From Diphasiastrum complanatum (lineage: Eukaryota; Streptophyta; Lycopodiopsida; Lycopodiales; Lycopodiaceae), in the NCBI GenBank assembly GCA_029204225.1, contig CM055095.1:66179940-66243939 (forward strand): 64,000 bases of DNA, written 5' to 3'. Every line of letters starts with the position of its first letter. Positions within the stretch are counted from its first letter, which is position 1. Positions 17,352-60,836 of the stretch are shown here, one piece after another. Both the position numbers and the translations under genes were made by a program. The notes below the pieces were generated by a model. The model was not told the DNA's origin. It saw only the letters and a list, made by a program, of their open reading frames with translations, and searched no databases.

Positions 17352-17364
17352 GGCTCTAATACCA
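17352..17364 (-). other. Primer-binding site of derivative D
   Basis: Minus strand reads TGGTATTAGAGCC, one base from the initiator-Met tRNA complement, and abuts the LTR at 17365. Confidence 0.85.
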
Positions 17365-20398: not shown

Positions 20399-21542
20399 TT
20401 AAAGAAAAACACTATTCCCCTGCAGTTTCCTGTGAGGAGGTTTGGTAATCTGTTTTCTCTCTCCGCCCATTATCCAGCTCAATCTCGTTTTGACGATTGG
20501 AAGCCATTTCTGTGTCTGTTCATCTTGTTTCTCTGCATAACTATCTTGAGCTGATTTATCATCAAATGCACCCTTGTTGATGTTAGACCAGGCAAATCTC
20601 TGTAATCCAGTGATCTCAGACATGGATCTTTGGTCTGAGAAAGATGAGTCCTTATCCTCGTAGGCCAATATCCCAGCCTCAGGATTTTTCGTCTTGCCAT
20701 CATCAGCTTTTGCGTTTAAACCATTAATTTGGTTCTTTCTATCTGAATTTGTGCGTGAGATTAAGTTTTGCTTTTTCATTAGGAATAGTAAATCAGCTGG
20801 TACGAAATTGCTCCATCTGGGCTGCATTAGCACAGGATCTGAAACGATGATCCTGTGGCTCATCAGTAAAGGGTGCTGTCCCAGCTCCCCATCTATCACT
20901 GGGCATTTTGTCCGGTAGCCGCGTCTGACGCCTTCGTCCAGCTCTTGCGGAAGTCTCTCCCGCATCTCGCTCCACAATTATCTGGAAACCCCCAATCTCT
21001 AATGAGCGCCTGGGTGTTGACAATGCCATATCTGATGAGACTCTAGCACTACGTATTCCATCTGCAAGCAAATATGGATCTTCCTCCGTAATTTGACACC
21101 TACAAAGAGGACAGGTAGAATGGGAATGAAGCCAAGTGTCCACGCAGTCGACATGAAAAGCATGTTTACATGTTGAGAGCATCCGGAGAACATCACAATC
21201 CGCATATCTGACTAAGCAGACTGCGCACTCTAGCCCTTCTTTGTTCCCTTTCAAAGATGAGAAAGAAAAAGTAGGCAAAACTCGAATGATAGCCTCATCA
21301 ACACCACATTCACTGCTATTTGCTTGAAGCTGATCAGCAGTCACTTCGGCATCAAGTCCTTGACGTCTTCGTAGTATCTTTGTCATGTGATGTATCGCGC
21401 ACACAACCACTACAAACGCCACCCAACAAATGGCATTGATTACTCCAACATATATCCAGACAGAGTAAGTATTGGAATGGGAGCTAAAAGCGATAGGTGG
21501 TGACGAGGGCGTTGATAGAAGCCTACCATCAGAAGTTTCCAT
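20399..21542 (-). pseudogene. ATL-family RING-H2 E3 ligase, copy 2 (frameshifted)
   Basis: Paralogue of the gene at 278-1468 on the same strand. From 21542 the first frame gives 249 residues: membrane segment about 28-50, GVDEAIIRVLPTF at 80-92, and a complete RING-H2 (C106, C109, C125, H127, H130, C133, C144, C147). At 20860/20861 the sequence lacks 26 bp that are present in copy 1 (698-723). The frame shifts and ends in a novel tail at 20793. The rest of the tail is still readable in the other frame to 20399 (RWSNFVPADL, SDQRSMSEITG, SWIMGGERKQITK), so the shift is recent or bypassed. As it stands it would encode a truncated but membrane-anchored and RING-competent protein. An intron spanning the break is possible but not evident. 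Confidence 0.85.
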
Positions 21543-22700
21543 CCTGTAGGCTCATCAGTAATTTCTTAAAAATCTCTTTGTCTATTAACATTGACAAGTA
21601 TGTCATCACTGTTGATTTTTATTATCTCTTGCAACGTTGTGAAGTTGTAAACAAAGAATTTAAAAAAGAGTCTCACCAAATTTGCACATTATTTTATTGA
21701 TCATGGACCATGGTTTTCAAGAGGGGGCTCAAACGTGGGACCAAAGAAACTTTGGATGCCAAGCTAACCAACAACCAACCCTATTGATTGTTTTATAAAT
21801 AATGGTGATTGTCAAATTTGGATTCTTTCGAACATTGGGATAGTTTAAAACTATTTTGGATTCTATGCCCCTATGCTTTTTGTAATAGTCTGCAGAATTA
21901 CTCGCAATCTACTGTAGTCTACATATTTACTGCCCAACTTGCAAAAATACACTACATTTGACTGTAGGTATCGCATTTATAGCAAACCTAACGAAAAAGG
22001 GTGAATGCCTCAACAATTGCATCAACTATCACATTTCTAGAAGAATTTTTTTCCTCAAACATGTTAATGCGAATATCATAGATATCACATTTGAATGTCT
22101 GAGCTATTGCAACCATCGCATATCAAGAAGTCCTTTGATCTCGGACATGTCTATTATATATATTACCCTTTTACCACAAAGTGCAAATGTCTCATCTATT
22201 GCAACTATCACATTTTTCTAAAAATGCAAATTCATTATTTTTTGAGAGATCCTAAGTGAAAAATTCAATATTCAAAAAGTCGACGCATTTGTTTTATTTG
22301 TATAGAATGGTTGAGCTTGCTTACATCGTTCTGAAGCAGAGCTTTGACATCTGGCTCCGCTTAGGGAGTGCACTGCATGCAATCTCTGACAGGCGTCAGG
22401 GAGTGCAGTGGTGCACAATCCCTCCTCGCCCATGATTGTTCTCTCGGCCAGCCACCTCTCTCATCTCGTCCCGTTTGCAAAAAGACGTCCAAACGTTTGC
22501 AGGAAGGCATCTCGTTTGTAGCATGTTGGTGAAGTGAACTCACAAGCTTCGTTTGCTAGTCTGCGTACAGTTTGCAACTCCAGCCAGCGGCCACAGACCT
22601 CCCTCAAGCGTGCCACATCATTTCTTTTTTATATTAACTAAAAAATAATAATAGAGTACAAATAAAAGTATAGCAAACAAAAAAAATAACAAGTACAGAA
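21543..22700. other. Intergenic, nothing recognised
   Basis: Upstream region of ATL gene 2 followed by AT-rich DNA. ORFs near 21958-22221 and 22361-22543 show no domain. A 5' promoter for ATL gene 2 should lie near 21543-21800, but I can point to no element. Confidence 0.35.
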
Positions 22701-31650: not shown

Positions 31651-31898
31651 TCCAAAGAGTACCAGCGAGATCATGCAAGTATCCAGAAGTATAGATATCT
31701 GATCTGATGACATGATGTTAGCAAATACATTTTAGGTCATGGCTAATCTGCCACTCTTGTAATTCTCTGATTAGTTGTAGATGCTTAATCACTCTAATCT
31801 CAGATTTACATAGAGCGTCTATACTTACTAGATGATACTTGACATATAGATTAACAGAATACATCCTAGACATACATTCATGAGAGAAGTGTATCTCT
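31651..31898. other. Non-coding junction
   Basis: Sequence between the truncated Copia element H and the duplicated block. Nothing recognised. Confidence 0.4.
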
Positions 31899-32650
31899 CT
31901 CACGCCAACGCACTGCGTGGATTTGCATGCAGTGCTTGAAGAAATCAGAGAAAGATCAATATAGACGATTTTTCTTGTTGTGTCTGATCTCGAATGCAAA
32001 TGCGTCTGATGTTATTCGTATGTCTGAGCTTTCTTGTTCATTTGAATTTCGCACCTTGGTTGAAACTATGTTGAATGCTACATTAATTTTATAAACGTAG
32101 ATCAACAGTGCCTGACTAAATTCTGGAGGATTGTAGGAGTGATTCAGCTGGCAATGTCCAGCGATCGCAGCTGAACTCCATCCAAAGTGCAAGAGAATCG
32201 TGGTTCCTTCGCGAAAGCTTCACGACTACGAAATCCCCTTTCATTCTCATCAGTCCATCTGTGTGCAAAGACAATTCTATCTAGGATCTGAAGATCCAAC
32301 TGTCTGCTAGTAAAGCGAGATGATCACTAGAACCGTATTTCTCCCACGCCAGCGCACTACATGGATTTGCATGTAGTGCTTGAAGAATCAGAGAAAGATC
32401 AATATAGATGATTTTTCTTGTCGTGTCTGATCTCGAATGCAAATGTGTCTACTGTTACTTGTGTGTCTGAGTTTTCTTGTTCATTTTAATTCCGCACCTT
32501 GGTTGAAACTATGTTGAATACTGCATTAATTTTATAAACGTAGATCAGTGGTGCCTGACTACACTCTGGAGGACTGTAGGAGTGATTTAGCCGGCAATGT
32601 CCAGCGATCGCATCTGAACTCTATCCGAATCGCAAGAGAGTCCTGGTTGA
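31899..32650. repeat. Direct duplication, about 307 bp, offset 445 bp
   Basis: 31899-32205 and 32344-32650 are about 85-90% alike by eye (acgccaacgcactg, gcttgaag.aatcagagaaagatcaatatag, accttggttgaaactatgttgaa, caatgtccagcgatcgca). Each is non-coding. They lie at the 3' side of the Gypsy element and may come from its LTR or untranslated region. Confidence 0.8.
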
Positions 32651-36849: not shown

Positions 36850-36968
36850 ATTTCCATGGTGCAAACACAATGTAATTGCAACTGATAATATGAGTTTTCG
36901 ATAGCAAGATTCATTGTCTCCTGCAGGAAATGCACTATCTCCATTGGGGAGACCTTCAGTCACTTGAA
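36850..36968 (-). pseudogene. Duplicate of the H3-Ulp1 terminal exon
   Basis: Minus strand reads FK, stop, LKVSPMEIVHFLQETMNLAI then ENSYYQLQL. This parallels the terminal exon at 37407-37565 (FKCPKVSPMEIMHFRQETIKIVIKNSY). The Cys codon TGT is replaced by TGA. It lies about 0.6 kb downstream of that exon and indicates a local exon duplication. Confidence 0.75.
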
Positions 36969-37680
36969 CTCCAGTTGAACGCTTGCCCTTGTTGAAGTCT
37001 CTTATATCGCTTGTATTTTTTGTCTTCATTGCCTTGGTCTGTATTGTCCTTGTCTTGGCATATTTGGATATGTTGAGATGATGATCTGATCAAAGCTTTG
37101 TTGTGACAAATCTAAGTGAACTAATGTCGCATGTTTGGATTAGTTGTGGCAAAGGTTCGGTCAGATCATCATTCGGAACTTATCCAAAAAAAGACCATGG
37201 CAAAGGCAAGGCAGACCAAGGCTATGAAACACAAACATGTCAAAAGATAGTAAAATTTGAAGATGAATGAATCATAATCTGAATTGATAAGAGGAAAAAA
37301 AAAAAACATGTAAGAACAACCATAGAAAAACTGTAAGTATATTTCTATTATAATTTTTTGTACATGTGTCTCATCCACATAAAGTGAGACGAATATTTAA
37401 ACTGAATCAATTATCTATGATCTCTAAATCCATTTCTCCATTTGGAAGTAGCTTGGGTGGAGAACACTCGGCCACTGCAATTGGATATGAATTTTTGATC
37501 ACAATCTTTATGGTCTCCTGCCTGAAGTGCATTATCTCCATTGGGGAGACCTTCGGACATTTAAACTGAAAAAAAAAAAAACATAAACACAGTTAAATGT
37601 AATTAAACAAAGATCACTTAATAGGAGTTTGTATATGAAAAAAATAAAAACACAATTAAAAGTAATCAATCAAATATTAC

Positions 37681-37788
37681 CTCTTCCAAATTTGGAAGTC
37701 CATCTTGTAATGAAAGCCAATTAAAAAAGTGTTTGGCATTGCATATGGTATACCAGCCACAGTTGACAGAATCAATTTGTTGGGAGGA
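37681..37788 (-). other. Ulp1 catalytic Cys exon
   Basis: Acceptor TTCTACAG and donor GAG|GTAATA bound exactly 36 codons, phase 0 on both sides: SSQQIDSVNCGWYTICNAKH and so on. QQxxxxxCG is the oxyanion Gln plus catalytic Cys box of C48 peptidases. The exon itself has no stop. Confidence 0.85.
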
Positions 37789-37814
37789 CTGTAGAATCCA
37801 AATTTGAACATTAT

Positions 37815-37975
37815 GAGATATCGGATCAATGCGTAGGATGTAAGAATAAAATCTACAATGAAAACAAGCGTGCGTCGATCCAATATCAAAAAAATTTGAT
37901 TGAATATCGGATCAGCGCGCACGTTGGAAAAATAAATCAATTGATAACTACAAGGGCGCGTCGAACCAATATTGA
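37815..37975. repeat. GATAT..ATC..CGCGC motif cluster, copy set 1
   Basis: Four related short motifs in both orientations, in the presumed intron between the His and Cys exons: near 37817-37836, 37868-37888, 37902-37924 and 37953-37975 (forms such as atatcggatcagcgcgcac and gcgtgcgtcgatccaatatc). Confidence 0.65.
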
Positions 37976-38274
37976 AAAATTTATAACTCTGCATCAACCA
38001 TTTTCAGCTTCGAGTATGCTTTTGCATTTGGTACTAGAAATAGTTCCAGTATTTTCTGTGTATGGGTCCTGACAATTTTGTGTGCGTGTGTGTAATAGAG
38101 TTCATCTTCAAACAAACTGGATTATACACACCCTCATCATTGACGTACAAGGACAACACATATAAGCTCCAATGATCACTGAAATCAGAAAACAAGAAAT
38201 TTATGTAAATCAATGTGAAATCAAAATTCATATAAAAAATTCAATAAAATAAAATCTGAAAAATAGTCACTTAC

Positions 38275-38500
38275 TTTGTTATGTATGGCAGCACGAGAAT
38301 TGGAGTCCCCAGTCTGACGTATTGGAGCATATCATCGTGTAGACTTTTGAAATCAGGAAAATCAAATGCTACCATGAATTGAAGGGAAAACAATGCAACA
38401 TCTATAAACCATGGGGTCTAGAAGAACTCCATCCAGTACTGAATGGCCCCACCTCCTACATTGTCCCCTAGCATTTTATCCCTACTTTCTAATTAAGCAG
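38275..38500 (-). other. Ulp1 protease N-terminal part in the fusion exon
   Basis: In frame with the H3 fold, apart from stops: LGDNVGGGAIQYWMEFF, stop, TPWFIDVALFSLQFMVAFDF and YVRLGTPILVLPYIT. This has the layout of the Ulp1 region before the His box (surface helix, then a hydrophobic strand ending before HW). The exon ends AA|GTAAGT and joins TTTCAG|TGATCATTGG to give ITNDHWSLYVL in frame. Confidence 0.7.
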
Positions 38501-39107
38501 TATCTAAAATAGAAAGGGGGAGACCAGCATTGGTCTTCGGCATCCTAAAACTGTATCGAGGACCTAAACCTTTAAGATACGTATTTAATAATTGGTCATA
38601 CTGTACATATTGAGGACTATTTACAAAGGCAAGTGCAGGGGGTGCCGAAAGTAACACAAATAAATCACATAAATAATTGTCATTCAAAATTGATTCTACC
38701 TTTACACTAATAAAATCATCTAAATCACTTCCAATAACAGGAGGAGGGGAACTAATATTTACGGGTTTAGAAGGAGGAGGAGATTTAGGAGGTGGAGATT
38801 TATTAGGAGAGGAAGATTTAGCAGGAGAAGTTAAAGATGGAGTGGAAGGAGACTTAGGAGGAGAAGAAGGAGAATTAGGAGGGGAATGAATAGAAGAAAG
38901 AATAGTATTCAGAGGAGTTGGCTTGGAAAAATCCCTCGCTTTAGATGGAGAGTCAAGATACCTCCTCTTCTTTGAAACACTCCCGCTCTGTATACAAATA
39001 ACAAGCCGGGTTGGTTGAGATTGCTTGCATTTTCTCCTCTCTGAATCTTGTTTTGGAGGAGAGGAGGGAGCAGGTCTAAAGTATTCAGCAAACTTGTCAT
39101 ATGTATC

Positions 39108-39360
39108 CCGAAGCCTGAACACTATGTTGAAATCCTTGGGCATGATGGTCGCCCTCTTGGCATGGACAGCTGCAACAACAGTATCCGAAAAAAACTTCAC
39201 CTAGAAATCCTCATATGCTGTGTGCAGCGCCTCAATTGCCGTTACCGTCCATCTCACATCTGTAGATAGACTTCTTGTCACCTGTCTGATGGACCTCTGT
39301 ATGTGAGATTTCGAAATCAGAAGATTATTTGTCTTCTGAAGCTTCTGAATATCCTTGAGC
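39108..39360 (-). other. Histone H3-type fold domain within the fusion gene
   Basis: The minus strand, one frame, gives LKDIQKLQKTNNLLISKSHI, QRSIRQVTRSLSTDVRWTVT, AIEALHTAYEDF, stop, VKFFSDTVVAAVHAKRATIM and PKDFNIVFRLRD. Against canonical H3 from the alpha-N helix to the end this aligns without a gap, about 37 of 86 positions identical by my hand count. The best block is HAKRxTIMPKD. Loop 1 has the canonical length, not the longer loop of CENH3, although R-W replaces R-F as in CENH3. The N-terminal tail is absent. The stop sits in helix 2 where H3 has Leu of YLVGLF. Confidence 0.85.
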
Positions 39361-39389
39361 CATGGAGGGTGGCTGTGATCAATAGGAAT

Positions 39390-39403
39390 TGGCTATAAAT
39401 ATG
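39390..39403. promoter_or_regulatory. Candidate TATA box between divergent ORFs
   Basis: ggctataaatatg holds TATAAATA on the plus strand, and its complement reads TATTTATA. It lies just upstream of the H3-fold coding start (about 39379, minus) and about 280 bp upstream of the plus-strand ORF at 39680. Which gene it serves, if any, cannot be told from sequence. Confidence 0.35.
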
Positions 39404-39477: not shown

Positions 39478-39680
39478 CCCGATATTGAATCGACGCGCGC
39501 CAACCCTTGCTGTGCATGCTCGTATTCATTCAGGCGTGCTGAATCGATATCAGCCACTGCCGACCAGTTCTTTTTGGAAAATTTCATTCTCGGCCTTACC
39601 ATATCAAATCAGCACGCGCACTTTGCTTTATTCTTCTACCGATATTTATTTGTCACGTTGAACCGATATCAGATTCAATA
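39478..39680. repeat. GATAT..ATC..CGCGC motif cluster, copy set 2
   Basis: The same motif family as at 37815-37975, here upstream of the plus-strand ORF: 39481-39502 (gatattgaatcgacgcgcg), near 39540-39560 (gaatcgatatcagcc), 39601-39621 (atatcaaatcagcacgcgc) and near 39655-39678 (gaaccgatatcagattc). Confidence 0.65.
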
Positions 39681-43520: not shown

Positions 43521-46278
43521 TTAACATGAACCTCTAATGTGAAGAAGCTGTGACACAACATTATCCATCAATAAAGTGTCTGCAGTATTAGAGATCATCT
43601 TCTCAATTTCTGCCCACACGCTCTTAGCCTCTAGGAGTTTACATTTCATATAATCCTGGGTCCTTTGTCCTTCTTCACATGATTTAGGGGCTTCCACAAA
43701 AAGTAAATGTGGGGTGTCATTCAAATCAAACCTTGGCTCCCTATTTTGGGATGTGTGGTCGAAATCAAACAACGTTGAGCAACCACCACGGTCAATTTCC
43801 CAACAAGTGCCCAAGCTTCGCACAATGTGACCCTCCCCCACTCCTATTAGCATTTGCAGTACCTTCACTTGATGCTTGCACACATTACCCTTTTCTGCCC
43901 ATTCACAAGTGCAAAATGCCCATTTTGTATCAACATTATACACTGGATGAGCTTTGGATGGATTAGAGCTACGGACCACAATTGACGGAATTGTGGGATC
44001 AATGGAAAGAGAGACATGTGAATCTGGAATTTTATGAGCTCGAAAAAGAGCATGCTTGACTAATTTCTCTCGTGTGCTATTTGAGACAAAACCATATGAC
44101 TTGCAAAAATCCAAATAAGCATAATGGTTTTCTACGTCAGTCAAGAGTATGTATAGCAACCAATCAACTCTTCTATTTTTCATAGGTTTCTTGGTAAGAA
44201 GATGACGACCTTTGAGATTTGCATGATATGCTTCGATAGCCCCATTTCTGTCTTGGTTCGCAAGTGGCGTATTTCTTGTTGCTTTGATCCACATATCTAA
44301 AAAATTTGTAACAAAACGTTAGACAAAATCATAATGAGGTTACTTGAGAGACGCATGAACTCTTCAAAAAACAAAATGAATTTGAAACCTTTACCGATTT
44401 GAAAAAGCCATATTTCCTTGAAGTATGACATAAATGCCACTTCTTCTGGAAATCTATGCATAAAAACTTGAAGAAGTGCATGACCGCATTCTCCATTTGG
44501 GTCCATTTCCGGCCGTTCATAGTTTCCCATATACATTATTTCTCCCAACATCCAAAACATTTCTACTCTAGTATTCCAAGCTCCCACTATTTGCATGAGC
44601 ATCTTCAACCAACATCTTGTCACATGCCAAAGAAAAAGAAAGATCCAACAACGAAACACGCATCTACAAAACAACATGAAATGACTGAATGATGAGAAAA
44701 GAATATCATCAAAAAATGAATAGCCAAGAAACCAAAGACAATATATGTTGAAATGTTTTCCAATTTGACTATGCACCTCAGAGCATTTATCTCACAATCT
44801 GCATTGTCTACCATGAATCTATTTGGTTGCCAATCTACTTTTAATCCGCACATCTTCTCCTTAAGTTGTTGCAACCAAGGAATGATATCTTGAGCCTTAG
44901 AACTGCTTGTGAGCACCCATGCTACAGGTATGCCATTTTGGAACGCATCAAATGCCAAAATTGTGAGAGTTGGTACTACACACAACACAATGTGGTGAGA
45001 AGTGACAATGTCACAATAAATTCAACTTCACACAAGTAAAGTAATCAATTGTATTCTAACCTTGAATTTGTTTGTCCCAAATGTAGCATCCATGGCTAGG
45101 ATGTTGTTATGGCCAAGAGAGAGCATCTTCTCTATTTGAAATTTTGTTTGGATGCCCAATATGAATGGCGTCTTTTCCATCTTGCTAAATGTTTGATAGA
45201 GAAAAACTCTCTTCACATTTTGTATTGTCCATAAATGGACACTACGTGCATCATCTTTGTGCAACTCAAATGTCTCTTTTGACAATTTCATAGATAAGTT
45301 TAAAATATCTTGTTTGGTGAGAAAATCATCTCTCGATGGGAGAAAGCTAGTTTCAGAACTTCTTTTGCTAGCTAGCATTGCTTTGTGCTCATTGATGATC
45401 TGATTTGGGTTTGCCTTCTTGTAAAGTTTGCACAATACCCAATGCTTTTTCTCTTTCGACAACCTATGGGCAAATTGAGCTCTAGAATGAAGTGATGATA
45501 CATCCAAAGGACCATGACATGGTTGTCCATTTTTATCGACATGACATCTCTCGAAATAACACACTTTCGCAACAGCAGGCCACTAATATAGTTGCTTAAT
45601 AGAAAAATTACATTGGCAACCTCTTGACAAGCTCTCACCTCGACTTACCAAGCTTCGTCTACTTCCTGGACCCTGTTTCGACCTTTGGGACCTATCTTCT
45701 AAATTGGGACCTATCCACATTTCTATTGTCATTTGGTCCATACATACACCAATACCTGCAACACAATAAATAGAAATATTAAGTCCAAACAATAATCACA
45801 ATCTAACAAAAAAAACGTAACCCTGTTTATACCATATATTTTCTACTTACCATGTACGCTGTAGAAAACTATCTGGCTTTGCCATGTTTCAAATCCCCAG
45901 GTGCACTTGACTTTATATGATACTTTGAGAAATTTGTGGGTGCCTTATCATTTTTTTCCTCACCCTCAATGAATTGCTCAACTCGCGAGTATGGAATATA
46001 TGCAACTTCAGATTGAAATTATTTTCCCTCACGATTTTGAGTTGTAACATTCTCCCATTCCAAATCTGTAAAGCACAATGTGACAAGGGGCGGTTCTTGT
46101 ACAACTCTAAAAGGGGGCTCTATGGCCCTAAATCCTGCATGCAATAATTTTGAATTGATAAATCATTCTACAAAAACACACTGTCATTCATAACCTCATG
46201 CCAAACCGTCTTACCTTCAATAGAATTATCTCTCGATGCCACTTCAGGAGGCAGAGACACTTCTTTATTCAGAAACAT
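43521..46278 (-). pseudogene. SWIM zinc-finger / Mutator-transposase-like gene, six exons, decayed
   Basis: Resembles the plant SWIM-domain MULE-like family (Arabidopsis AT1G60560 type, from memory). Exons by splice phase: 46215-46278, 45851-46134, 45061-45755, 44777-44975, 44395-44663 and 43521-44296. Content in order: an N-terminal domain (VAYIPYSRVEQFIEGEE, YWCMYGPN), a Cys/His segment (RGCQCNFSIKQLY, then VCYFERCHVDKNGQPCHGP), a MULE transposase core (ILAMDATFGTNKFK, RFMVDNAD, NGAIEAYHANLK, giving the D-D-E residues) and a SWIM finger (CTCEWAEKGNVCKH). Exon joins 1-2, 4-5 and 5-6 are phase-correct. Breaks: TAA 46019-46021, TAG 45583-45585, one-base shifts near 45885 and near 45700, and a shift at the exon 3-4 join. 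Such genes are usually domesticated or transposon-derived; this copy cannot make a full protein. Confidence 0.85.
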
Positions 46279-46810
46279 AACTCCTCATCGCAATTTCTAC
46301 AAGTGCAAGAGATTTGTCAATTTTCACAAGTACGTTAATCTTGGTCTCAACAACATATGGATGAATGAATACGTCCAGAATCAAGCATTTTGCCATTAGG
46401 GAGATCCATCCTACCTCCGTCAAGAGTGTCTCTCACGGACTTCATGAGGCAGAAACATGCCAATGTCATTGCTTGATATCGAGCGTGGTGCTTCAAAATA
46501 GCTAGTAGTTGTAGCCTCTACGAAGTGCAAGTGCATTATGGTTAAATAGGTGTAGTCTTACAAAATGCTTACATATCGTAAGTTTATAATTATTGTACAC
46601 GTAGACATTAGGGAGATCCATCTTACCTCCAGTAAAAGTATCTCTCAAAGCAACTTCATGAAATGGAAACACACCAACTTCATTTTTTGATATCCAGTGT
46701 GGAGCTCCAGAATAAGTAGTCAAGAGTATCTCTCGATGCAACATCATGAGGCGAAAACACGCGAACATCAAAATAACTCCTAGTTGTAGCTTCTACAAGT
46801 GCAAGTCATT
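46215..46810 (-). repeat. Array of exon-1-like copies upstream of the SWIM gene
   Basis: The minus strand repeats a short coding-like block followed by a GTA(A/G)G donor and GATGGATCTCCC: LPPEVASRDNSIE (46215-46260), FLPHEV (46395-46460), FPFHEVALRDTFTGG (46610-46690) and FSPHDVASRDT (46720-46770). Only the first is joined in phase to exon 2. A flanking phrase (agttgtagc.tctac.aagtgcaag) recurs near 46505-46530 and 46785-46805. Confidence 0.65.
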
Positions 46811-47100: not shown

Positions 47101-47791
47101 TGTGAAAAGTACAATACTAAGGACCATAAATGGATCTTTGAATGATCCACAAGGTGATTGTATGCTTGTTAAACAATCTATCAGAAACTAGTCATCAGAA
47201 AACAAGATCTAGTTTAGCAGCTTGATAGGAAACAAGTAGAGACAATCAAAGCATTGATCAATCAGTATAATCCAACTCCACACGTGTGGAAATAAGGCTG
47301 GAGTACGGCCTATAGACAGTGTTTACAAAGTGCCAAAGCTGGGTTTCATTGGAAAAATAGAGTAATCACCATACAATGAGAGGAAACTCGAGTTTCTCCT
47401 TGAGGCTCCAAAAAGTTTCTATCTTCTCACTATGGAGAATGGGAGTACATAGTAAAACACACTTCCTTTGCAAAGTTAGGTGAAAATCCAGCATGTAATA
47501 AGGAAGTAGACTCCACTTTCTTGCCCTAATGTGAAAACCCTAGCCTAGATCCAAGAGTCATGCTTGGTAGGTGCATGGTAGGTACAAATCTCATCATAAA
47601 TCATGGTCTAGATCCTACAAAGTAGGAATCACTACCAAATAGACACAACCACTCCTCTTGACTCGTGGTAACCTACTTTAGGTGTGTATGTACAAGTGGC
47701 ACTTTGGCCATTGAAGTAACCAACAAACAATATTGACAAAATGTACAATATTCTACATGGCTAGATTTGCCAATGTAGGCAATTTTTCACA
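47101..47791 (-). repeat. 3' LTR of element C (691 bp)
   Basis: tgtgaaaagtacaatac...aatttttcaca. Holds ccacacgtgtgg (47278-47289), a CACGTG palindrome. Preceded on the minus strand by the purine tract GAGGAGGAG (47792-47800). Confidence 0.95.
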
Positions 47792-48661
47792 CTCCTCCTC
47801 AAATCTAGCCTTGGAGATCACAATGCTTATATCAATAACTCCAATTGAAGGTCTAAGCTTGACAAATGAATCTTTAGGTAAAGGTTTAGTAAACAAATCA
47901 GCCAAGCAACTTGATGATGGCACGTGTTGGAGCTTGATCTCTTTAGCTTGCACTTTTTCCCTCACGAAATGATGAGCAATTTCGATGTGTTTGCTCCTTG
48001 CATGGAATGTAGGATTAGTTGCAAGTGATTGGGCTGATTGGTTGTCACAATAGATGATAGGGATCTCCTCCTCCATGACATGAAGCTCCACCAATAGCCT
48101 TTTGAGCCATAAGACCTCCTTGCATGTTGATGTCAAGGCCTTGTATTTGGATTCTGTGGAAGATAGGGAGATGGTATCTTGCTTTTTGGAAAGCCATGAT
48201 ACTACTCCATCACATAGAAAGGTGGCAAAGGCACTTGTTGATCTTCTATCCACTTTGTCACCTGCAAAATCCGAGTCACTATAGGCTCTTAAGCCAAGAT
48301 TAGTTCCTCTATACAAAATACCAAAATTCTTAGTGAATGAAATGTATCTAAGAACTCTTTTGGCCATCTTCCAATGTGAAACTAGAGGACTTTGTATGAA
48401 TTGGCTTAACTTTCCAACACTATAACTAAGATCAGGTCTAGTTATAGTTAAATAGACCAAGGAGCCAATAAGCCTTCTATATAATGTGATGTCCTCAAAG
48501 GATGCTTCATCACAACCAATAGATGCTTTTACATATTGCTCCATTGGTGTCTCAATGCCTTTACAATTCTTCATTCCAAATCTATCTAGGATGGATGTAG
48601 CATATTTAGATTGACAAATGAAGCTAAAATCACATCCTCTAATAACCTCTAATCCAAGAAT
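47792..48661 (-). pseudogene. Element C pol, 3' part (RT end and RNase H)
   Basis: Continues the RT of the part at 54529-56679 after the inserted element: GLEVIRGCDFSFICQSKYAT, TPMEQYVKASI and TRPDLSYSVGKLSQF. RNase H keeps AYSDSDFAGDKVDRRST and SLSSTESKYKAL, IIYCDNQSAQSLA, HARSKHIEIAHHFVREKV and CLADLFTKPLPKD. The frame stays open to 47753, some 13 codons into the LTR. Confidence 0.9.
48657..48661. other. Target-site duplication of element B, left copy
   Basis: agaat, repeated at 54524-54528 on the other side of element B. Confidence 0.95.
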
Positions 48662-49314
48662 TGTGAAAAACTCAGATCCAAAAGATGCTAAAGTTTCATA
48701 AAGATCTTGGCCATGGAAGTTATGCACATCTAGATTGAAAAAATGATAGAAATTGTGATGTTAAGCATACTAAACATCAACTAAACATCAAAATCTGATC
48801 ATAAGCTTCCACAAACAGAAACTTGCTGTCCCTGTCCGTACTTCAGAGCCTACAACCTGCATTTCACACGTGTGAAGCCATAGCAACAAAGAAATCACAA
48901 TTCTAGTGGCTAGAATGCAAGATATGAACAAAAAAGTGAGAGAGAAGAAGATGGACCTTCAAAGAGCATAACATTCATTCAATAGAATGAAAATGAGATA
49001 TGTACATACTCGTGGAGATGGCTATTTATAGCAGCCATAGTGCCTCTTGGCCACTTGTCTTATGATAGGCTAAAATTGGGGTCCAATAGGATTCACCCAT
49101 ATACCTAGAAATTTGGTCAAATAGGAATGCACCAAATTATGAGCCAATAGAAGAGCTCCACACTCAACCTCCTCTAATTATTGTGACCTCAAAAGTAGTG
49201 TACACATACTTTGGGCCTCTACATACATGTATGAACCTATCTCTAACTTTTATTTGGCCATAGGCCTACAAAATCTCAAGTTAGGAAAATACTACTAGTT
49301 GACAATTTTTCACA
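48662..49314 (-). repeat. 3' LTR of element B (653 bp)
   Basis: tgtgaaaaactcag...gacaatttttcaca. Holds ttcacacgtgtgaa (48863-48876), a CACGTG palindrome. Confidence 0.95.
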
Positions 49315-52300
49315 CTCCCTCTTCAACTAGTTTTAGCATAGATTTAGAAAGTACACCAAGACTTGTTCTATGCTTGAAAAATAAGTCCTTTCCCAATGCT
49401 TTGGTAAAGATATCAGCCACACATTCCTTTGATGGGACATGTTCAAGCTTGATCTCTTTTGCCAACACTTGTTCTCTCACAAAATGGTAAGCCACCTCGA
49501 TATGTTTGCTCCTTGCATGGAAAACCGGATTGCTTGCTAGACTTTGGGCTGAAAGGTTGTCATAAAAGATGATTGGACTCTCTGAAAAATCCAGCAAATG
49601 AAGCTCCATAATCATCCTCTTGATCCACACCATCTCCTTTGTGCATGATGTCAAAGCTTTGTACTCGGCCTCACTAGAAGAAAGTGATATAGTTGCTTGT
49701 TTCTTCGACATCCATGAGATAGCTCCATCACCTATGAAAATAGCATGTGCATTTATGGATTTTCTATCCATAAGGTCTCCTGCAAAATCTGAATCTGAAA
49801 AACCAAATAAGTTAGGTGATGAGCCTCTATAAACAATGCCAAAATCTTTTGTTCCCGAGATGTATCTCAAGATCCTCTTTCCTAGTTTCCAATGTTCTAT
49901 GCTAGGATCTTGCATGAATTGGCTTAATCTACCAACACAATAAGATAAATCAGGTCTTGTGATGGTTAGATATATAAGAGAACCTATTAGCTTCCTATAG
50001 AGAGTAATGTCCTCGAAGGATCTTTCATTACTTCTTATAGTTAGCTTTACATGTGATTCCATAGGTGTATCAATAGGATTTGCATCTACCATATGAAATC
50101 TATTGAGAATAGAAATAGCATACTTCTCTTGTGAAATAAAAGTGATTTGAGAAGTTCTAATTACTTCTATTCCTAAGATATAGCTCAAAAGACCAAGATC
50201 ATGCACTTCAAATTCCTTTTTTAGTGCTTTCTTGATATCTTCTATATCTTCCTTGTTCCCTCCACTTAAAATAATGTCATCCACATAAATTAGAAGGATT
50301 GTAACATCATTAGCACTAATTCTAAAGTAAAGTGAATGATCATACTCACTCATAGTGAAGTTTTGAGAAAGTAGAAAAGAGTTAAGCCTAGCATACCAAC
50401 TCCTTGGTGCTTGCTTAAGACCATACAAACTTTTTTGTAGAAAACACACATGATTAGGCTTGCTATGAGAAACATAGCTCTCGGGTTGCTCCATGTAGAC
50501 TTCCTCTTCAAGATCACCATTCAAGAAAGCATTAGAAATGTCTAATTGCCAAAGATCCCATCCATAAAGAGTTGCAAGGGAAATGATTACTCTTATGCTC
50601 ACCATCTTTGCCACGGGTGCAAAGGTTTCCTCATAGTCAATGCCATGCTCTTGAGCATAACCTTTAGCCACCAACCTTGCCTTCAACTTGTTGATAGATC
50701 CATCTTGATTTGTCTTTACCTTGAAGATCCATTTGCATCCAATTGCACTTTTGCCCTTTGGAAGCTCCACCAATCTCCATGTGTTGTTTTTCATAAGTGC
50801 TTCAAACTCAAGATCCATTGCTTGGATCCATTCCTCTTTTTGCCTTGCTTCATCTACACATGAAGGTACATCAAAAGAAGTTAGGAAAGCATAGTTGGAT
50901 CCATCCACCACTTGCTTACCTTTGCCATCATAAGTGAGCCTTGAGGGTTTCACTTTATGCCTTGGAGTTCTCCTTGGAATTTGACTTGAAGAGGCTTCTT
51001 CAACATCCACATCCAATGTGTCATCAACTCCATTGTCATCAAGCACATTAGTTGCAACAACACCATCATCACTTGAAACAACTTTTGGAATGTTACTTTC
51101 ATCAAAAATGACATCCCTACTTGTGAACACTTTCTTGATTGAAGGAACATAAATCCTATATGCTTTGCTTACTTCACTATAACCAACAAAAATGCCCTTT
51201 CTTGAAGATGGATCCTCCTTAGTTCTATCATCAAGAGTAATGTTGAAGTAGCAAATGCATCCAAAAGTTCTTAGAAACTTGACATTAGGCTTCGTACCAA
51301 ACAAAGCTTCAAAAGGGGTTTTTCCTTCCAATACAACACTTGGCCATCTATTGCATAGGAAATTTGCACACAACAAAGCATCACTCCAAAAAGGTTTAGG
51401 AAGATTAGCATTCAATCTCATTGCCTTTGCACTCTCACACAAGGTTCTATTCTTCCTCTCGGCCACTCCATTTTGTTGTGGTGTTCTTGGACATGTGTAC
51501 TCCCTCTTGATCCCATGCTCATCGCAAAAGGCTTTGAATTTGTTAGAAATGTATTCACCACCATTGTCGCTCCTCAAGCATTTGATTTTGGTTGTAAATT
51601 GAGTCTCAATAGCAACTTTGAACTTGACAAACACATCAAACACCTCATCCTTGCTCTTTAGTAGATAAACCCAACAAAATCTACTAAAATCATCAATGAA
51701 AGTTACATACATCTTAGCACCTCCATTGCTAATTGTAGTAACACCATGAATATCCGAATGCAAGAGAGAAAAAGGCATCTTAGATCTAGATATAGATCTA
51801 GTATATGGCAATCTATGTGATTTAGACAAAGCACATTCTTCACAAACATGATTCAAGCAAGTAAGAGACTTGGGAAGTCCCCTTACTACCTCCTTTTTGG
51901 CTATTACCTCCAAGGCCTTGTAGTTGAGATGTCCCATCCTTTTATGCCATACCTCTTGAATTGACATTTGTTCATTTGCCATGCATCCAACTTGGTTAGC
52001 AACAACACATGCATCAAGCTTGAACAATTTCCCTTGCCTTTTCCCTTTTGCAATGATACTACACCCCTTTTTGATCAAGCAAGCATCACCATCAAACTCA
52101 ACTTTGAATCCTTTGTCAAGCATTTGGCTTACACTAAGTAAGTTCTTGGTAATGGATGGAATGAGCAAAACATCTTTCAATTCTATATTCCTATTTGTAG
52201 AAAGTGAAATAGGAATTGTGCCAATCCCCTTGATTGCACACTCACCATCATTTGCGGTATAGATTACCTTCCTATCACCATCAAATGCCATTAAAGATGA

Positions 52301-53260
52301 AAAATACTCTTTATGATATGTCATATGAGAAGTGGCTCCACTATCAATCCACCAAGGATCAATGTCTCCATGATTAGCCAACAAGCAAGATGACATAACA
52401 AAAGCATCATTTGAAAGAAGCTCATCCCCACCCTCATCAATAGTTAGATTGGTTTGCTTTTCCCCTTGATCCCTCTTTTTCTTAAAACAATCACTAGCAA
52501 AATGCCCTTTGACTCCACAATAGAAACATTTTAGCTTAGATCTATCCTTCTTTTTGCCAAAAGTAGAGTGCTCACCTTGGTCTTGCCCTTTAGACCAATT
52601 GCTTTTACCTTTGCCCTTGAACTTGCCTTTAGAGAACATTGCCTCCTCTTCTCCTCCTTGAGATGTAGAAGATGCTCCCACTCTTGCTTGCAACCTGAAT
52701 TCTTCAGCCAACAAGACCTCTTGCAAGTCTCCAACACTTGGTAAACATTTTTGGATAGCATAACTTTGAACAAGATTAGCATGATCATCCAACAAGCCAT
52801 TGAGAATCACTTGAACAAGCTCCTCATTATTTATGCCATCATTAATGCATGCTAACTCATCATTCAATGCTTTAACTCTCAAAACAAAAGCATGTCCATT
52901 CTCACTCTTCTTTTGCATACAAGAAAAGATTTGCCTTCTTAAAGTCAACACTCTAGAAGTAGACTTGGATTCATAAACCTTCTTCAAGGCTTCCCAAGCT
53001 TCACTAGATGATGTGCACTTACCAACCTCTTTGATAAGCTCATTTGTCACATTCATCTTGATCATGTGAAGGGCTTTCTTTGCCCTCTTGTCATACCTCA
53101 ATTGTTCTTGAGGTGCCAAAGGTCTCTCCTCCACACCTACAACAATATCCATCAACTCATTCATCTCAAGCAAAGACTCCATCCTTACTTTCCAAGTAGA
53201 ATAGTTGAGGGAGGTAAGCCTATCATTGCTTTCCAACATGTAGCCTCCATTTGTAGCCAT
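49310..53260 (-). CDS. Copia Gag-Pol polyprotein of element B, intact
   Basis: 1316 residues in one frame, so Gag and Pol are not separated by a shift or stop. Gag: 1-240, with NYSTWKVRMESL near 19-30. Zinc knuckle C245, C248, H253, C258. Protease active site D306-S307-G308. Integrase zinc site H439, H444, C473, C476; catalytic D503, D565, E601. Reverse transcriptase from about 820, with FLNG near 912, SLYGLKQAPRSWYAR near 944-958 and YVDD at 992-995. RNase H: D1156 in FSDSDFAGD, E1197 in SSSEAEY, D1234 in FYDN. End: HARSKHIE and DIFTKAL. The stop codon uses the first bases of the 3' LTR (GTGTGA spans the tract-LTR border). Start: first Met after the primer site, 53260. Confidence 0.95.
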   Translation of the reverse strand: MATNGGYMLESNDRLTSLNYSTWKVRMESLLEMNELMDIVVGVEERPLAPQEQLRYDKRAKKALHMIKMNVTNELIKEVGKCTSSSEAWEALKKVYESKSTSRVLTLRRQIFSCMQKKSENGHAFVLRVKALNDELACINDGINNEELVQVILNGLLDDHANLVQSYAIQKCLPSVGDLQEVLLAEEFRLQARVGASSTSQGGEEEAMFSKGKFKGKGKSNWSKGQDQGEHSTFGKKKDRSKLKCFYCGVKGHFASDCFKKKRDQGEKQTNLTIDEGGDELLSNDAFVMSSCLLANHGDIDPWWIDSGATSHMTYHKEYFSSLMAFDGDRKVIYTANDGECAIKGIGTIPISLSTNRNIELKDVLLIPSITKNLLSVSQMLDKGFKVEFDGDACLIKKGCSIIAKGKRQGKLFKLDACVVANQVGCMANEQMSIQEVWHKRMGHLNYKALEVIAKKEVVRGLPKSLTCLNHVCEECALSKSHRLPYTRSISRSKMPFSLLHSDIHGVTTISNGGAKMYVTFIDDFSRFCWVYLLKSKDEVFDVFVKFKVAIETQFTTKIKCLRSDNGGEYISNKFKAFCDEHGIKREYTCPRTPQQNGVAERKNRTLCESAKAMRLNANLPKPFWSDALLCANFLCNRWPSVVLEGKTPFEALFGTKPNVKFLRTFGCICYFNITLDDRTKEDPSSRKGIFVGYSEVSKAYRIYVPSIKKVFTSRDVIFDESNIPKVVSSDDGVVATNVLDDNGVDDTLDVDVEEASSSQIPRRTPRHKVKPSRLTYDGKGKQVVDGSNYAFLTSFDVPSCVDEARQKEEWIQAMDLEFEALMKNNTWRLVELPKGKSAIGCKWIFKVKTNQDGSINKLKARLVAKGYAQEHGIDYEETFAPVAKMVSIRVIISLATLYGWDLWQLDISNAFLNGDLEEEVYMEQPESYVSHSKPNHVCFLQKSLYGLKQAPRSWYARLNSFLLSQNFTMSEYDHSLYFRISANDVTILLIYVDDIILSGGNKEDIEDIKKALKKEFEVHDLGLLSYILGIEVIRTSQITFISQEKYAISILNRFHMVDANPIDTPMESHVKLTIRSNERSFEDITLYRKLIGSLIYLTITRPDLSYCVGRLSQFMQDPSIEHWKLGKRILRYISGTKDFGIVYRGSSPNLFGFSDSDFAGDLMDRKSINAHAIFIGDGAISWMSKKQATISLSSSEAEYKALTSCTKEMVWIKRMIMELHLLDFSESPIIFYDNLSAQSLASNPVFHARSKHIEVAYHFVREQVLAKEIKLEHVPSKECVADIFTKALGKDLFFKHRTSLGVLSKSMLKLVEEGV
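49315..49324 (-). other. Polypurine tract of element B
   Basis: Minus strand GAAGAGGGAG directly before the 3' LTR. It would prime second-strand synthesis. Confidence 0.9.
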
Positions 53261-53858
53261 GTTGCAATGATTGATCTCTGATCTTTGACTTGTTCCAATG
53301 CACTAAGCACTCTCTTGAATCAACAAATGAAACACAAGAAGAAATCACAAAGATTTGGAACCTAAAACCTTACTTTTTCTCTCTTTTCCTCACTTTTTCC
53401 TTAATTTTAGCCACTAGTTTTATGATTTCTTGATCAAACCAAGACCAAACCTCAATATACTTGCTTTTCCCTCACTCCTAAGATTGAAATACACTCTTGA
53501 ATCATTCAGCAAACTGAAAATCAGAGGGTTACATCAATTTTGAAGTTTTTGACATGAAGAAGCAAGAAATTGAATCAAAAAAACTATATGCTAGAATGGA
53601 AAACTAATAGGATCTTGTTGGATCTTGCATCTCCCTCTTTCCAAAACAATTTTTGTCTCCTTATTCTGATAAGTACAGAGGGAATTCGCCCTACTTCAAT
53701 TGAAATGCATACAAATGATGTTTTGATCACAAAGATCCAATTTCTACACATAAATCAACAAGATTTTTAGCTAGAAACTTGATTGGAATGCTACAAAAGC
53801 AAACTCGCCCACAAATCTCTTCTAAATCTGGCAAAACCTGCACATTTGGCCGCCTAAT
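53261..53858 (-). other. 5' leader of element B
   Basis: Untranslated region between primer site and Gag start. AT-rich, with no recognised motif. Confidence 0.8.
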
Positions 53859-53870
53859 GCTCTGATACCA
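53859..53870 (-). other. Primer-binding site of element B
   Basis: gctctgatacca; minus strand TGGTATCAGAGC, perfect for initiator Met tRNA, directly abutting the 5' LTR. Confidence 0.95.
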
Positions 53871-54523
53871 TGTGAAAAACTCAGATCCAAAAGATGCTAA
53901 AGTTTCATAAAGATCTTGGCCATGGAAGTTATGCACATCTAGATTGAAAAAATGATAGAAATTGTGATGTTAAGCATACTAAACATCAACTAAACATCAA
54001 AATCTGATCATAAGCTTCCACAAACAGAAACTTGCTGTCCCTGTCCGTACTTCAGAGCCTACAACCTGCATTTCACACGTGTGAAGCCATAGCAACAAAG
54101 AAATCACAATTCTAGTGGCTAGAATGCAAGATATGAACAAAAAAGTGAGAGAGAAGAAGATGGACCTTCAAAGAGCATAACATTCATTCAATAGAATGAA
54201 AATGAGATATGTACATACTCGTGGAGATGGCTATTTATAGCAGCCATAGTGCCTCTTGGCCACTTGTCTTATGATAGGCTAAAATTGGGGTCCAATAGGA
54301 TTCACCCATATACCTAGAAATTTGGTCAAATAGGAATGCACCAAATTATGAGCCAATAGAAGAGCTCCACACTCGACCTCCTCTAATTATTGTGACCTCA
54401 AAAGTAGTGTACACATACTTTGGGCCTCTACATACATGTATGAACCTATCTCTAACTTTTATTTGGCCATAGGCCTACAAAATCTCAAGTTAGGAAAATA
54501 CTACTAGTTGACAATTTTTCACA
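53871..54523 (-). repeat. 5' LTR of element B (653 bp)
   Basis: Near-identical to 48662-49314. A minus-strand ORF reading out of it has the same start as one at 48727 only because the LTRs are the same. Confidence 0.95.
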
Positions 54524-54528
54524 AGAAT
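54524..54528. other. Target-site duplication of element B, right copy
   Basis: agaat, matching 48657-48661. Confidence 0.95.
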
Positions 54529-56679
54529 GAAGCTCAATAGGCCGAGATCTACCATCTTAAACTCTTTTGCTAAAGCAATTTTTACATCTCTAATTCCATC
54601 TAGATCATTACCACTCAAGATAATGTCATCTACATACAAAACAAGAATAATGATCATGCCATCATGAAAACTTATATACAATGATGGATCATAGGCACTC
54701 ATTACAAAATTGATGGAAATGAGAAAAGAGTTTAGCCTAGAGTACCATGCTCTAGGTGCTTGCTTGAGCCCATAAAGGCTCTTCTTCAAAAAACATACCT
54801 TTCCTTCATGCTTTGCCTTGATGAAGCCCTCGGGTTGCCTCATGTAGATCTCTTCCTCCAAATAACCATTGAGGAATGCATTTGTGAAGTCAAGTTGGAA
54901 TAGCTCCCAATTGAAGGTTGTAGCAAGACTAATGATCAACCTGATAGTAACAAGCTTAGCCACAGGAGCAAAAGTCTCATCATAGTCAATGCCTTTGGTT
55001 TGTAAAAAACCTTTGGCAACAAGCCTAGCTTTATGCTTGCTTATTGATCCATCTTGATTATACTTCAATCTAAACACCCACTTGCAATCAAGAGGTTTCT
55101 TCCCTTGAGGAAGTTCCATAAGATCCCATGTATGATTCTCAATAAGAGCATCATACTCTACTTGCATAGCATCCATCCAACTTTTAGACTTACAAGCATC
55201 TTCATAGCATGTTGGCTCATCTAACATTGAAGTAAGAAAGGTGTAAGATGTGAAAGATGATGAGCCTTCCCTTTGATCACCTTGACCATCATAGGTGAGC
55301 CTCAATGGCTCGGATCTTGCCCTTGTAGATCTTCTTGGAGATCTTGGAGTTCTTGCATCTTGAGGTGGATCCTCAAGTTCTTCTTCACTTGGAAGCTCCT
55401 CCTCCATCCTAGCATGATCCTTGGCATCAAGATGATTAGTAGCATTATCATCCAAATCACAAGCATGTCCTTCATCAAAAATAACATCCCTACTCACTAT
55501 CACCTTGCTAGTGATGGGATTGAAGACTCTATAACCTTTGCTATTCTCAACATATCCCACAAAGATGCCTTTGATGGATGTTGCATCATCCTTCCTTCTC
55601 TTATCCAAGGATTGGTGTACATAGCAAGTGGATCCAAAAACTTTGAGATCTTTGATATTGGGTTTCTCTCCAAATAGAGCTTCAAATGGTGTGATTCCTC
55701 CAATGGCTTGGTTTGGCAATCTATTGCACAAATAGTTAGCACAAGTTATTGCTTCACCCCAAAATGGTTTGGATAGAGAAGCATCTAGCCTTAAGGCCTT
55801 AGAACACTCACAAAGAGATCTATTTCTTCTCTCACTCACTCCATTTTGTTGAGGGGTGTATGGACATGACAACTCCCTCTTTATGCCATTAGAACTACAA
55901 AAGTCAATCAACTTATTGGAGATATATTCACCTCCATTATCACTCCTTAATACCTTAATCTTGGTACTAAGTTGATTTTCTACCAAAGTCTTGAACTTTA
56001 CAAAAGAATCAAACACCATTGATTTGCTAGACAAGAGGTACATCCAACAAAATCTAGAATAGTCATCAATGAAGATTACATAGTAATTGGCACCACCATT
56101 AGACTCATGTGAAAAACTATGAACATCCGAATGGATGAGTTCAAGAGGAGAGTTTGATCTTGACGTAGATCTTGAGAAGGGTAGTTTGTGAGCCTTTGAG
56201 AGGCTGCATGCTTCACATCTCTTCCCACACTTTGACAAATGCTTGGGGAGTTCAACTGCAAGCTTCTTTGTAGCCATAGATTCCATGGCTCTGTAGTTGG
56301 GGTGGCCCAACCTTTTGTGCCACAGTTCCACCTTTGCCAAGTTAACACTCTCCACTGCAATATTAGCATCAAGCTTAAACAATCTACCTTGCTTAAAGCC
56401 TTTGGCTATACATTCATCATTTCTAAGGATGGAACAAACTCCATGCTTAAATTGTACATCCAGGCCATTATCCATTAACTGGCCAACACTAAGCAAATTC
56501 TTGGTTAACTTAAGAACATAAAGAACATTATCTAGATTCATCCTTTTGGATGATCCCACATACAAGGGAATTGTTCCTATTCCACTTATCTTACATTCTT
56601 GACTACTTGAAGTATAGATTGATCTATGTAAGTCATTGTAAGAAAGTAAGGTGGAGAATATGTCTTTTTGATATGTCAT
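54529..56679 (-). pseudogene. Element C pol, 5' part (protease to RT)
   Basis: Open from just after the protease nonsense change: SSHMTYQKDIF, CKISGIGTIPLYV, LWHKRLGHPNYRAM, CEACSLSKAHKLPFSRS, then integrase D/D/E blocks (LIHSDVHS, LRSDNGGEYISNK, TPQQNGVSERRNRSL). RT has GCKW-like DCKWVFRLKYNQDGSISKH, FLNGYLEEEIYM, SLYGLKQAPRAWYSR and LYVDDIILSG. It ends at DLGLLSFIL where element B is inserted; the few residues beyond come from the LTR of B. Confidence 0.9.
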
Positions 56680-56703
56680 GTGAGAACTTGTCCCACTATC
56701 AAT

Positions 56704-57626
56704 CTACCAAGAATCATTGGTGTTGCTCTTAGATGATGGTGGTTTGTTGGAAACCATCAAGGATGACTCTTCATCCTCCTCTTCCTCCTGATGTGCAGTG
56801 TTGCTTTGTTTGCTCTCTTGTGCCTTCTTCTTCTTGAGACATTCTGATGCAAAATGTCCTTTCTTTCCATAGAAAAAATATTTGTGCTTGGACTTGTCTT
56901 TGATCTTGCCCTTTGAGCTTGAAGCCTCATCCTCCTCCTTGGTCTCCTTGAAGTGCTTCTTCTTGCCATTGGTCTTCTTCTTGTTTTTGAATGAGAAATT
57001 AGCTTTCTCATCACCATCCTGCAGAGAAATAGCATTCATTCTTGCATTGGTATGCAACATCCTACACTCTTCAGCTACTAATACACTGTGTAGCTTTTCT
57101 ATAGTAGGCAAAGTGTCTTGGATTGCAAAGCTTTGGACCAAATTTGTAAAGCACTCCCTAGACCATTTAGGACAATCTGAACAAGCTCACTATCTTGAAT
57201 CTTCTCTCCAATGGAAGCTAACTCCCTATTAAGAGACTTGATTCTTAGCACATAATCCTGTGCACTCTCATCACTCCTCTTCATGCTTTGTAGAATCTGA
57301 TTCCTAAGCATGAGAACCCTCGAAGTGTTACTAGACTCATAGATAGATTTTAAAGATTCCCAAGCCTCTTCAGCACTCTTACATGATGATACTTCCCTTA
57401 AAAGATCATTGCTTACATTCATCTTAATACAGTGAAGTGCAAGCCTAGATCTCTTCTTGTATCTCACTAATTCCTGTGCACCTAGAGGTTCATCTTCATC
57501 ATCTATTAGAAACTCATAAAGATCCTGGAGCACCATTAGTGACTCCATCCTCACTTTCCAAATAGCATAATTGGTAGAATTTAACCTCTCACTAGCTTCT
57601 AGAAGGTAGGCTCCCACTGATCCCAT
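56704..57626 (-). pseudogene. Element C gag, frameshifted
   Basis: ATG at 57626: YLLEASERLNSTNYAIWKVR, EEAWESLKSIYESSNTSRVL and RIKSLNRELASIGEKI. A one-base deletion near 57160 (compare element E, which keeps the base) shifts to the frame at 56704-57141, which continues LVAEECRMLH and a knuckle in which one Cys is Phe-Tyr (KYFFYGKKGHFASECLKKK). The frame then ends in SW, stop, IDSG: TGG to TAG at the protease. Confidence 0.85.
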
Positions 57627-57640
57627 CTTACTAGCAAGAT

Positions 57641-58227: not shown

Positions 58228-58239
58228 GCTCTGATACCA
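58228..58239 (-). other. Primer-binding site of element C
   Basis: gctctgatacca, minus strand TGGTATCAGAGC, next to the LTR at 58240. Confidence 0.95.
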
Positions 58240-60823: not shown

Positions 60824-60836
60824 TGTAATCAGAGCC
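60824..60836 (+). other. Primer-binding site of element E
   Basis: tgtaatcagagcc, two bases from TGGTATCAGAGCC. Confidence 0.75.

Follow-up and report, generated by a model that had tools for sequence, protein, structure and literature searches.

Ulp1 domains are known in plant MULEs from several species, and the VANC genes of some VANDAL transposons include such a domain (KIU). In the account given by a 2026 review, KIU/VANC proteins work by way of noncoding motifs and bring about hypomethylation of their own kin; the same review, which cites Hoen 2006, van Leeuwen 2007 and Sasaki 2022, calls the precise role of Ulp1 in plant transposons unknown (PMC13317346). VANC21 is described as binding a 9-base motif in noncoding regions, in one orientation, with tandem repeats of the motif upstream and in introns (PMC5735166), and a further precedent for VANDAL anti-silencing through short noncoding motifs has been reported (PMC10398659). 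Fungal hAT transposons, in turn, are described as carrying H3-like (H3L) genes (PMC3538342, PMC6710886). For each half of the fusion considered here there is a precedent in transposons, namely the Ulp1 domains of plant MULEs and the H3-like genes of fungal hAT elements.

Here we describe a gene relic in Diphasiastrum complanatum in which an H3 globular domain is followed, on the same strand, by a linker and a probable Ulp1-type (C48) protease domain. The relic lies in the window, the whole stretch of 64,000 nt that we analysed (GCA_029204225.1, contig CM055095.1, 66,179,940-66,243,939); all coordinates below are positions in it. Among the open-licence papers listed as matches in our literature searches, judged by title and the start of the abstract, none described an H3-Ulp1 fusion and none reported a mobile element of plants with a histone core as part of a protein that it encodes. 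To this extent, the literature agrees with the original prediction, in which no described family with this architecture was known.

Results

A single frame runs from an H3 domain through a linker

An H3-type fold leading into a Ser/Pro/Lys-rich linker had been predicted in a single minus-strand frame broken by three stops, and we find this frame at 39392-38275. It makes up exon 1 (38275..39392, minus strand; 5' end tentative), which holds the H3 globular domain, the linker and a segment before the protease boxes, and which is followed by a GTAAGT donor from 38274. The H3 domain gives way to a basic stretch and then to the linker (38760..39107, minus strand), both open in the H3 frame. The three stop codons are at 39201-39203, 38493-38495 and 38418-38420. 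The open stretch at 38496-39200 has 235 codons and spans from helix alpha2 of H3 to the part after the linker; in 500 Markov control sequences the longest stretch was 179 codons, so that none (0/500) was as long. When the frame was divided into five segments, codon-position bias was significant in four, namely the H3 part, the part after it, the linker and the post-linker part, and was not significant in the last segment of exon 1 (38492-38277; P = 0.185). Since the linker is of low complexity, which itself lengthens open frames, the segments flanking the linker weigh most in these comparisons. The post-linker region matched no Pfam family of its own. A search for relatives of the 235-residue piece gave 25 pattern matches among viral contigs and 68 among those of prokaryotes, of which none was confirmed.

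In a departure from the original prediction, which did not mention it, we found no ATG in the H3 frame between the domain and the stop that closes the frame upstream, and thus the start, or an entire first exon, has been lost or escaped detection. A TATA-like string, TATTTATAG, which we spotted by eye only, lies immediately upstream of exon 1 (39393..39401, minus strand). With three in-frame stops, a frame break in exon 2 (see below) and no start codon found, this copy of the gene is dead.

The N-terminal half is a histone H3 domain that apparently evolved as a protein

The assignment of the first half to H3 (39108..39359, minus strand; H3 residues 48-131, alphaN to alpha3) is borne out by three kinds of sequence search. 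When the frame was read across the first stop, with the stop as X, the histone profile PF00125 matched at 1.9e-18 (67.3 bits against a curated cut-off of 26.4); the pieces on either side of the stop matched separately at 2.1e-08 (above the cut-off) and 0.0015 (below it). A search of PDB sequences yielded 173 distinct sequences at E ≤ 0.001, the best 60 of which are all H3 or H3 variants, aligned from H3 residue 48 to about residue 131; the best match was H3.2 (2.3e-17). Furthermore, tblastn of H3 against the window found 39359-39108 at E = 1.6e-20, with a runner-up at E = 23. These scores exclude chance for the H3 half. Comparison of folds, a check proposed with the original prediction, did not help: a structure modelled on this one sequence had low confidence (pLDDT 49.5), though with helices at 10-21, 31-43, 50-77 and 85-104 placed as in H3, and Foldseek with this model returned no histone among the best 50 of 155 rows. 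The H3 assignment therefore rests on the sequence profiles.

The domain is identical to H3.2 at 37 of 84 positions (44%), aligned ungapped. In a simulation of neutral drift to 44% identity, with an assumed indel:substitution ratio of 1 to 8, we expected about 103 substitutions and about 13 indels, compared to the 0 indels observed in 252 bp. The number of stops is by itself uninformative, since 29% of the neutral simulations had one stop or none. We also asked which residues have been kept, using lists of DNA-contact and H3-H3' interface residues that we chose ourselves: on the short list 10 of 11 are retained, compared to 44% identity overall (P = 9e-4), and on two wider lists 8 of 15 and 7 of 10. 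With 44% identity reached without an indel, and with 10 of the 11 contact residues in place, the H3 domain seems to have evolved as a protein and not to be a fresh H3 pseudogene.

The parental domain was apparently without a canonical H3 tail. In a tblastn search of the window with an H3 N-terminal tail, the best of 172 matches had E = 0.085 and lay at 56981, and the matches listed near exon 1 had E values of 3 or more; a tail encoded by an exon farther upstream would still be compatible with these matches.

The domain shares with both canonical H3 and CENH3/CENP-A the fold from alphaN to alpha3, most of the contact residues and AKR.TIMPKD in loop 2. Where H3 has Phe84 the domain has Trp, a residue also found there in a CENP-A chimera in the PDB. 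It differs from canonical H3 in being only 44% identical to H3.2 and in its C-terminal fusion, and its loop 1 has the canonical length. Loop 1 of CENP-A and CENH3 is longer than that of H3, in CENH3 typically by two residues; a CENH3 sequence spans 96 residues where H3.2 spans 94, whereas the D. complanatum domain aligns to H3.2 without a gap over 84 residues. Loop 1 is thus too short for CENH3 to be the direct source of the domain.

The C-terminal half is probably a decayed Ulp1-type domain

The protease boxes had been predicted to lie in later exons joined by phase-compatible splice sites. This proved correct for the joins of exon 1 to exon 2 (donor A|GTAAGT, acceptor CAG|T, phase 2 to 2) and of exon 3 to exon 4 (donor G|GTAATA, acceptor CAG|T, phase 0 to 0), and is doubtful for the join between them, where the exon 2 donor G|GTTGAT is a weak guess and exon 2 has a frame break that the original prediction did not mention. 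Specifically, exon 2 (37999..38178, minus strand) holds the His box, NDHWSLYVL...VYNPV; its frame is broken near 38105 and its 3' end is uncertain; it encodes NDHWSLYVLSLY...VYNPV after the CAG acceptor that is matched in phase to the exon 1 donor. Exon 3 (37681..37788, minus strand) holds the Cys box, SSQQIDSVNCGWYTICNAKHFF. Exon 4 (37407..37565, minus strand) encodes the C-terminus and ends with the stop codon at 37407-37409, and a decayed second copy of it lies at 36888..36970 on the same strand (81% over 83 nt).

We examined whether these exons match known C48 proteases. Regular expressions for the His box and the Cys box, which were designed with knowledge of the locus, had one match apiece in the six frames of the 64 kb, both at the locus and in the correct order. 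Two longer joins of the region from the His box to the Cys box matched PF02902 at 12.4 bits (E = 0.14) and 13.8 bits (E = 0.053), below the cut-off of 20.7, and PF02902 was the only family listed for either; a third, shorter join of the C48 part had no match to it. A search of PDB sequences with the C48 part (E ≤ 10) returned no protease, and its sole match was an unrelated pilus protein (E = 1.5). Relative to the Ulp1/SENP SUMO proteases, the locus shares the order of the His and Cys boxes, with the Gln that precedes the Cys box, and the sub-threshold PF02902 match, but the D. complanatum copy is broken, scores below the cut-off and reads Asn in the place of the Asp of the C48 catalytic set. 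Thus, of the predicted protease, the two boxes in their order stood, while the profile score and the PDB search gave no independent confirmation, and since the profile match is below the Pfam cut-off, the protease half is probable rather than proven.

Paired 20-bp sites lie upstream of the gene and in intron 2

In the noncoding parts of the locus we noticed, initially by eye, a recurrent 20-bp half-site, GATATYGRWTCRRCGCRCGC, of which there are eight copies in the 5' flank and intron 2 and of which the original prediction made no mention. The intron 2 array (37817..37973) has half-sites at 37817 (+), 37868 (-), 37903 (+) and 37954 (-), and the 5'-flank array (39481..39670) has them at 39481 (+), 39532 (-), 39600 (+) and 39651 (-). 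This flank is presumably noncoding and could be promoter, leader or an upstream intron. Each array is made of two inverted pairs, with strands alternating + - + -, and in all four pairs the offset from start to start is exactly 51 bp, giving 71 bp overall.

We measured how specific the half-sites are to the locus. The consensus with at most three mismatches occurs six times in the window, compared to 0.05 expected in shuffles, a comparison that is partly circular because the consensus was drawn from the same half-sites. With at most five mismatches there are 11 matches, eight at the locus (at most four mismatches) and three elsewhere with five (9135, 40995 and 63130). When the upstream half-sites alone, four in number, served to train a matrix, the four intron sites ranked directly behind them in the entire window (20.1, 20.0, 19.7 and 13.3; best other, 12.5). 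With the reverse matrix, trained on the intron sites, three of the four upstream sites outranked all unrelated positions, and the fourth, 39600 (13.0), fell behind 57610 (13.2). In 200 Markov controls we found no pairs at 51 bp and a mean of 0.84 single sites (maximum 4), compared to eight in the window, at a score threshold of 13 that was set after the scores had been seen and with four of the eight window sites being the training sites. Specificity drops sharply when the half-site is reduced to an 11-base core: with one mismatch allowed there are 17 matches, compared to 9.2 expected, and 2 of 100 shuffles had as many.

We detected no sequence relationship between the 31-bp spacers of one cluster and those of the other. 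Comparisons between clusters gave 4, 8, 5 and 4 identities of 31 in direct orientation and 12, 8, 8 and 9 when inverted; random 31-mers from the window average 8.2 identities, and 12 or more has P = 0.09. In contrast, the spacers of the intron units are identical to each other at 18 of 31 positions (P = 0.0003), so that these two units are probably duplicates, which leaves about three independent units.

The inverted arrangement could reflect either an RNA hairpin or a DNA-binding dimer. The two arms of a unit are no more alike (mean 12.75/20) than arms from different units (13.54/20), and when the units were folded as RNA, two of the four surpassed their shuffles by over two standard deviations (z = -3.56, -2.48, -1.27 and -0.27). 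We consider the RNA hairpin less likely, and these results favor a DNA-binding dimer. The half-sites are reminiscent of an array bound by a protein, such as the noncoding targets of the anti-silencing proteins of VANDAL, some of which carry Ulp1.

The surroundings are rich in transposon relics

A broken MULE/SWIM-type transposase lies about 4 kb upstream on the same strand (43524..45582, minus strand), with a SWIM match at 2.5e-4 (above the cut-off) and a MULE match, PF10551, at 0.094 (below it), and with a copia fragment in between. We found nothing that would place this transposase in the same element: it and the H3/C48 gene have no paired sites in common, nor did we find ends shared by the two. 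Direct repeats unlike the paired sites occur just upstream of the transposase relic (46227-46810).

Scans for the ends of an element framing the gene gave nothing convincing. A terminal-repeat scan gave six candidates, all with 3-bp duplications, compared to 3, 2 and 4 in three shuffles, and the best score was 16/20 in both. A scan for element ends with 8- or 9-bp duplications gave 0, compared to 1, 0, 0, 0 and 1 in controls, and a looser version gave 2, compared to 2, 1, 1, 1 and 8. CACTA-like strings are scattered over the window, and no pair of them could be established as framing the gene.

Retroelement pieces flank the locus in both directions. At 32.8-34.0 kb, matches to RNase H and, slightly under the cut-off, to reverse transcriptase mark a relic that we take to be gypsy-like, and a Pol_BBD copia-type fragment is found at 41.3-41.7 kb. 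Between two retroelement relics there is also a direct repeat of about 320 bp (31885-32648), its copies 88% alike and 444 bp apart. Farther away, apparent nested copia elements occupy 47101-58932: the outer repeats (47101-47793 and 58240-58932) are 97.8% identical, and the inner repeats (48662-49314 and 53871-54523; 99.8%) enclose an open frame of 1330 codons (49313-53302); the inner element looks young. An LTR-like family with about 73-98% identity occurs in both orientations at 16193-17999, 47101-47793, 57816-58932 and 60541-61247. The window also holds two related minus-strand RING-H2 genes (281-1489 and 20402-21551; DNA 76-79% alike), the second of which is split across two overlapping frames.

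Discussion

We favor the explanation, at a rough probability of 0.45 and thus a little short of an even chance, that the locus is the relic of a plant gene, probably of DNA-transposon type, whose parent made one protein of H3 globular domain, linker and Ulp1-type protease that acted on its own element. By the type of gene, a transposon origin is likely. In the mechanism that we propose, the exons would have been joined in a single transcript; the H3 fold would pair with H4 and so enter, or dock on, the element's chromatin, whether nucleosomal or tetrasomal, and the Ulp1 domain tethered to it, if catalytically active, might strip SUMO or a SUMO-like modifier from local silencing factors or histones. 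The inverted pairs of sites, both those of the 5' flank and those of intron 2, would serve as the element's own address, bound by the fusion protein or by a partner, and are a concrete candidate for the DNA on which either might act. The outcome would be an element kept unsilenced, as with VANC/KIU of VANDAL MULEs, with the H3 fold as an extra chromatin handle. A Ulp1 domain joined to H3 would also point to chromatin-bound SUMO conjugates as its target.

The alternative that survives best, although we think it unlikely, keeps the transposon-borne fusion but assigns the inverted-pair sites to a transposase or to transcription, with no relation to the fusion protein. CACTA elements have subterminal binding repeats for their transposase, inverted paired sites fit a dimeric DNA-binding protein, and an H3 fold is not known to bind DNA sequence-specifically. 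Consistent with this, the arrays described for VANC21 are in a single orientation (PMC5735166). Two observations speak against it: one of the clusters sits between two exons, away from any recognizable element end, and terminal repeats with 8- or 9-bp duplications beside the clusters were not above controls.

We also considered that the H3-Ulp1 fusion was real but belonged to a host gene, a divergent H3 variant with a protease domain that is now a pseudogene, in which case the array would be a promoter and an intronic enhancer. We regard this as improbable, and it ranks behind the previous alternative. The lack of convincing transposon ends, the TATA-like string with paired sites just upstream, and the preserved exon-intron structure would all be expected of a host gene; against these stand the retroelement pieces around the locus, the partial duplication of the last exon, the MULE-like transposase relic and the presence of Ulp1 in plant MULEs of several species (PMC13317346).

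That no fusion protein ever existed, and that H3-like and Ulp1 fragments were juxtaposed by nested insertions in a frame left open by luck, is a decidedly poor explanation, since despite the dead copy, the repeat-rich neighborhood, the C48 score below the cut-off and a low-complexity linker that could lengthen open frames without selection, frame and codon periodicity are continuous from H3 through the post-linker segment, the H3 part has no indel, and paired sites that precede the H3 exon recur between the exons with the His box and the Cys box.

A more elaborate version of the favored explanation takes the spacing of the sites literally. Nucleosomal DNA has about 10.2 bp per turn, and the 51-bp offset is five such turns. 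On the element that encodes it, a tail-less H3 might have formed particles that resemble (H3-H4)2 tetrasomes and are addressed by sequence, with each 71-bp pair as the dyad of one particle, while the tethered Ulp1 domain removed SUMO-dependent silencing there. We hold this to be a long shot, the least probable of the ideas put forward here; if it were true, the protein would be a selfish, self-addressed nucleosome variant.

Returning to the transposon-borne fusion that acts on its own element, we compare it to the two nearest systems. The locus differs from VANDAL in the DNA motif and in the domains that accompany Ulp1: the VANC21 motif is 9 bp long and in one orientation, whereas the D. complanatum half-sites are 20 bp, in inverted pairs with a 51-bp offset (PMC5735166). 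The VANC21 motif itself is absent from the locus (one match in the window, at 4925), and DUF1985/VANC is absent from the families listed for the pieces that were run against Pfam. Conversely, no H3 domain is mentioned for KIU/VANC in the main text of the 2026 review, in which the word "histone" is absent (PMC13317346). With respect to the fungal hAT elements, H3L is described as a separate ORF that includes an N-terminal tail, and other ORFs make up the chimeric protein that is described (PMC3538342, PMC6710886); in the text of one of these papers "ulp1" occurs 0 times (PMC6710886).

With the KIU/VANC genes of VANDAL, a non-TIR MULE, the locus shares a Ulp1-type domain, here a probable one, and repeated short motifs in noncoding flanks and introns (PMC13317346). 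With fungal H3L it shares an H3 domain, which in the fungi is carried and multiplied by a DNA transposon, and H3L of Pyrenophora is reported to fit neither H3 nor CenH3 fully, as is the case for the D. complanatum domain (PMC3538342, PMC6710886).
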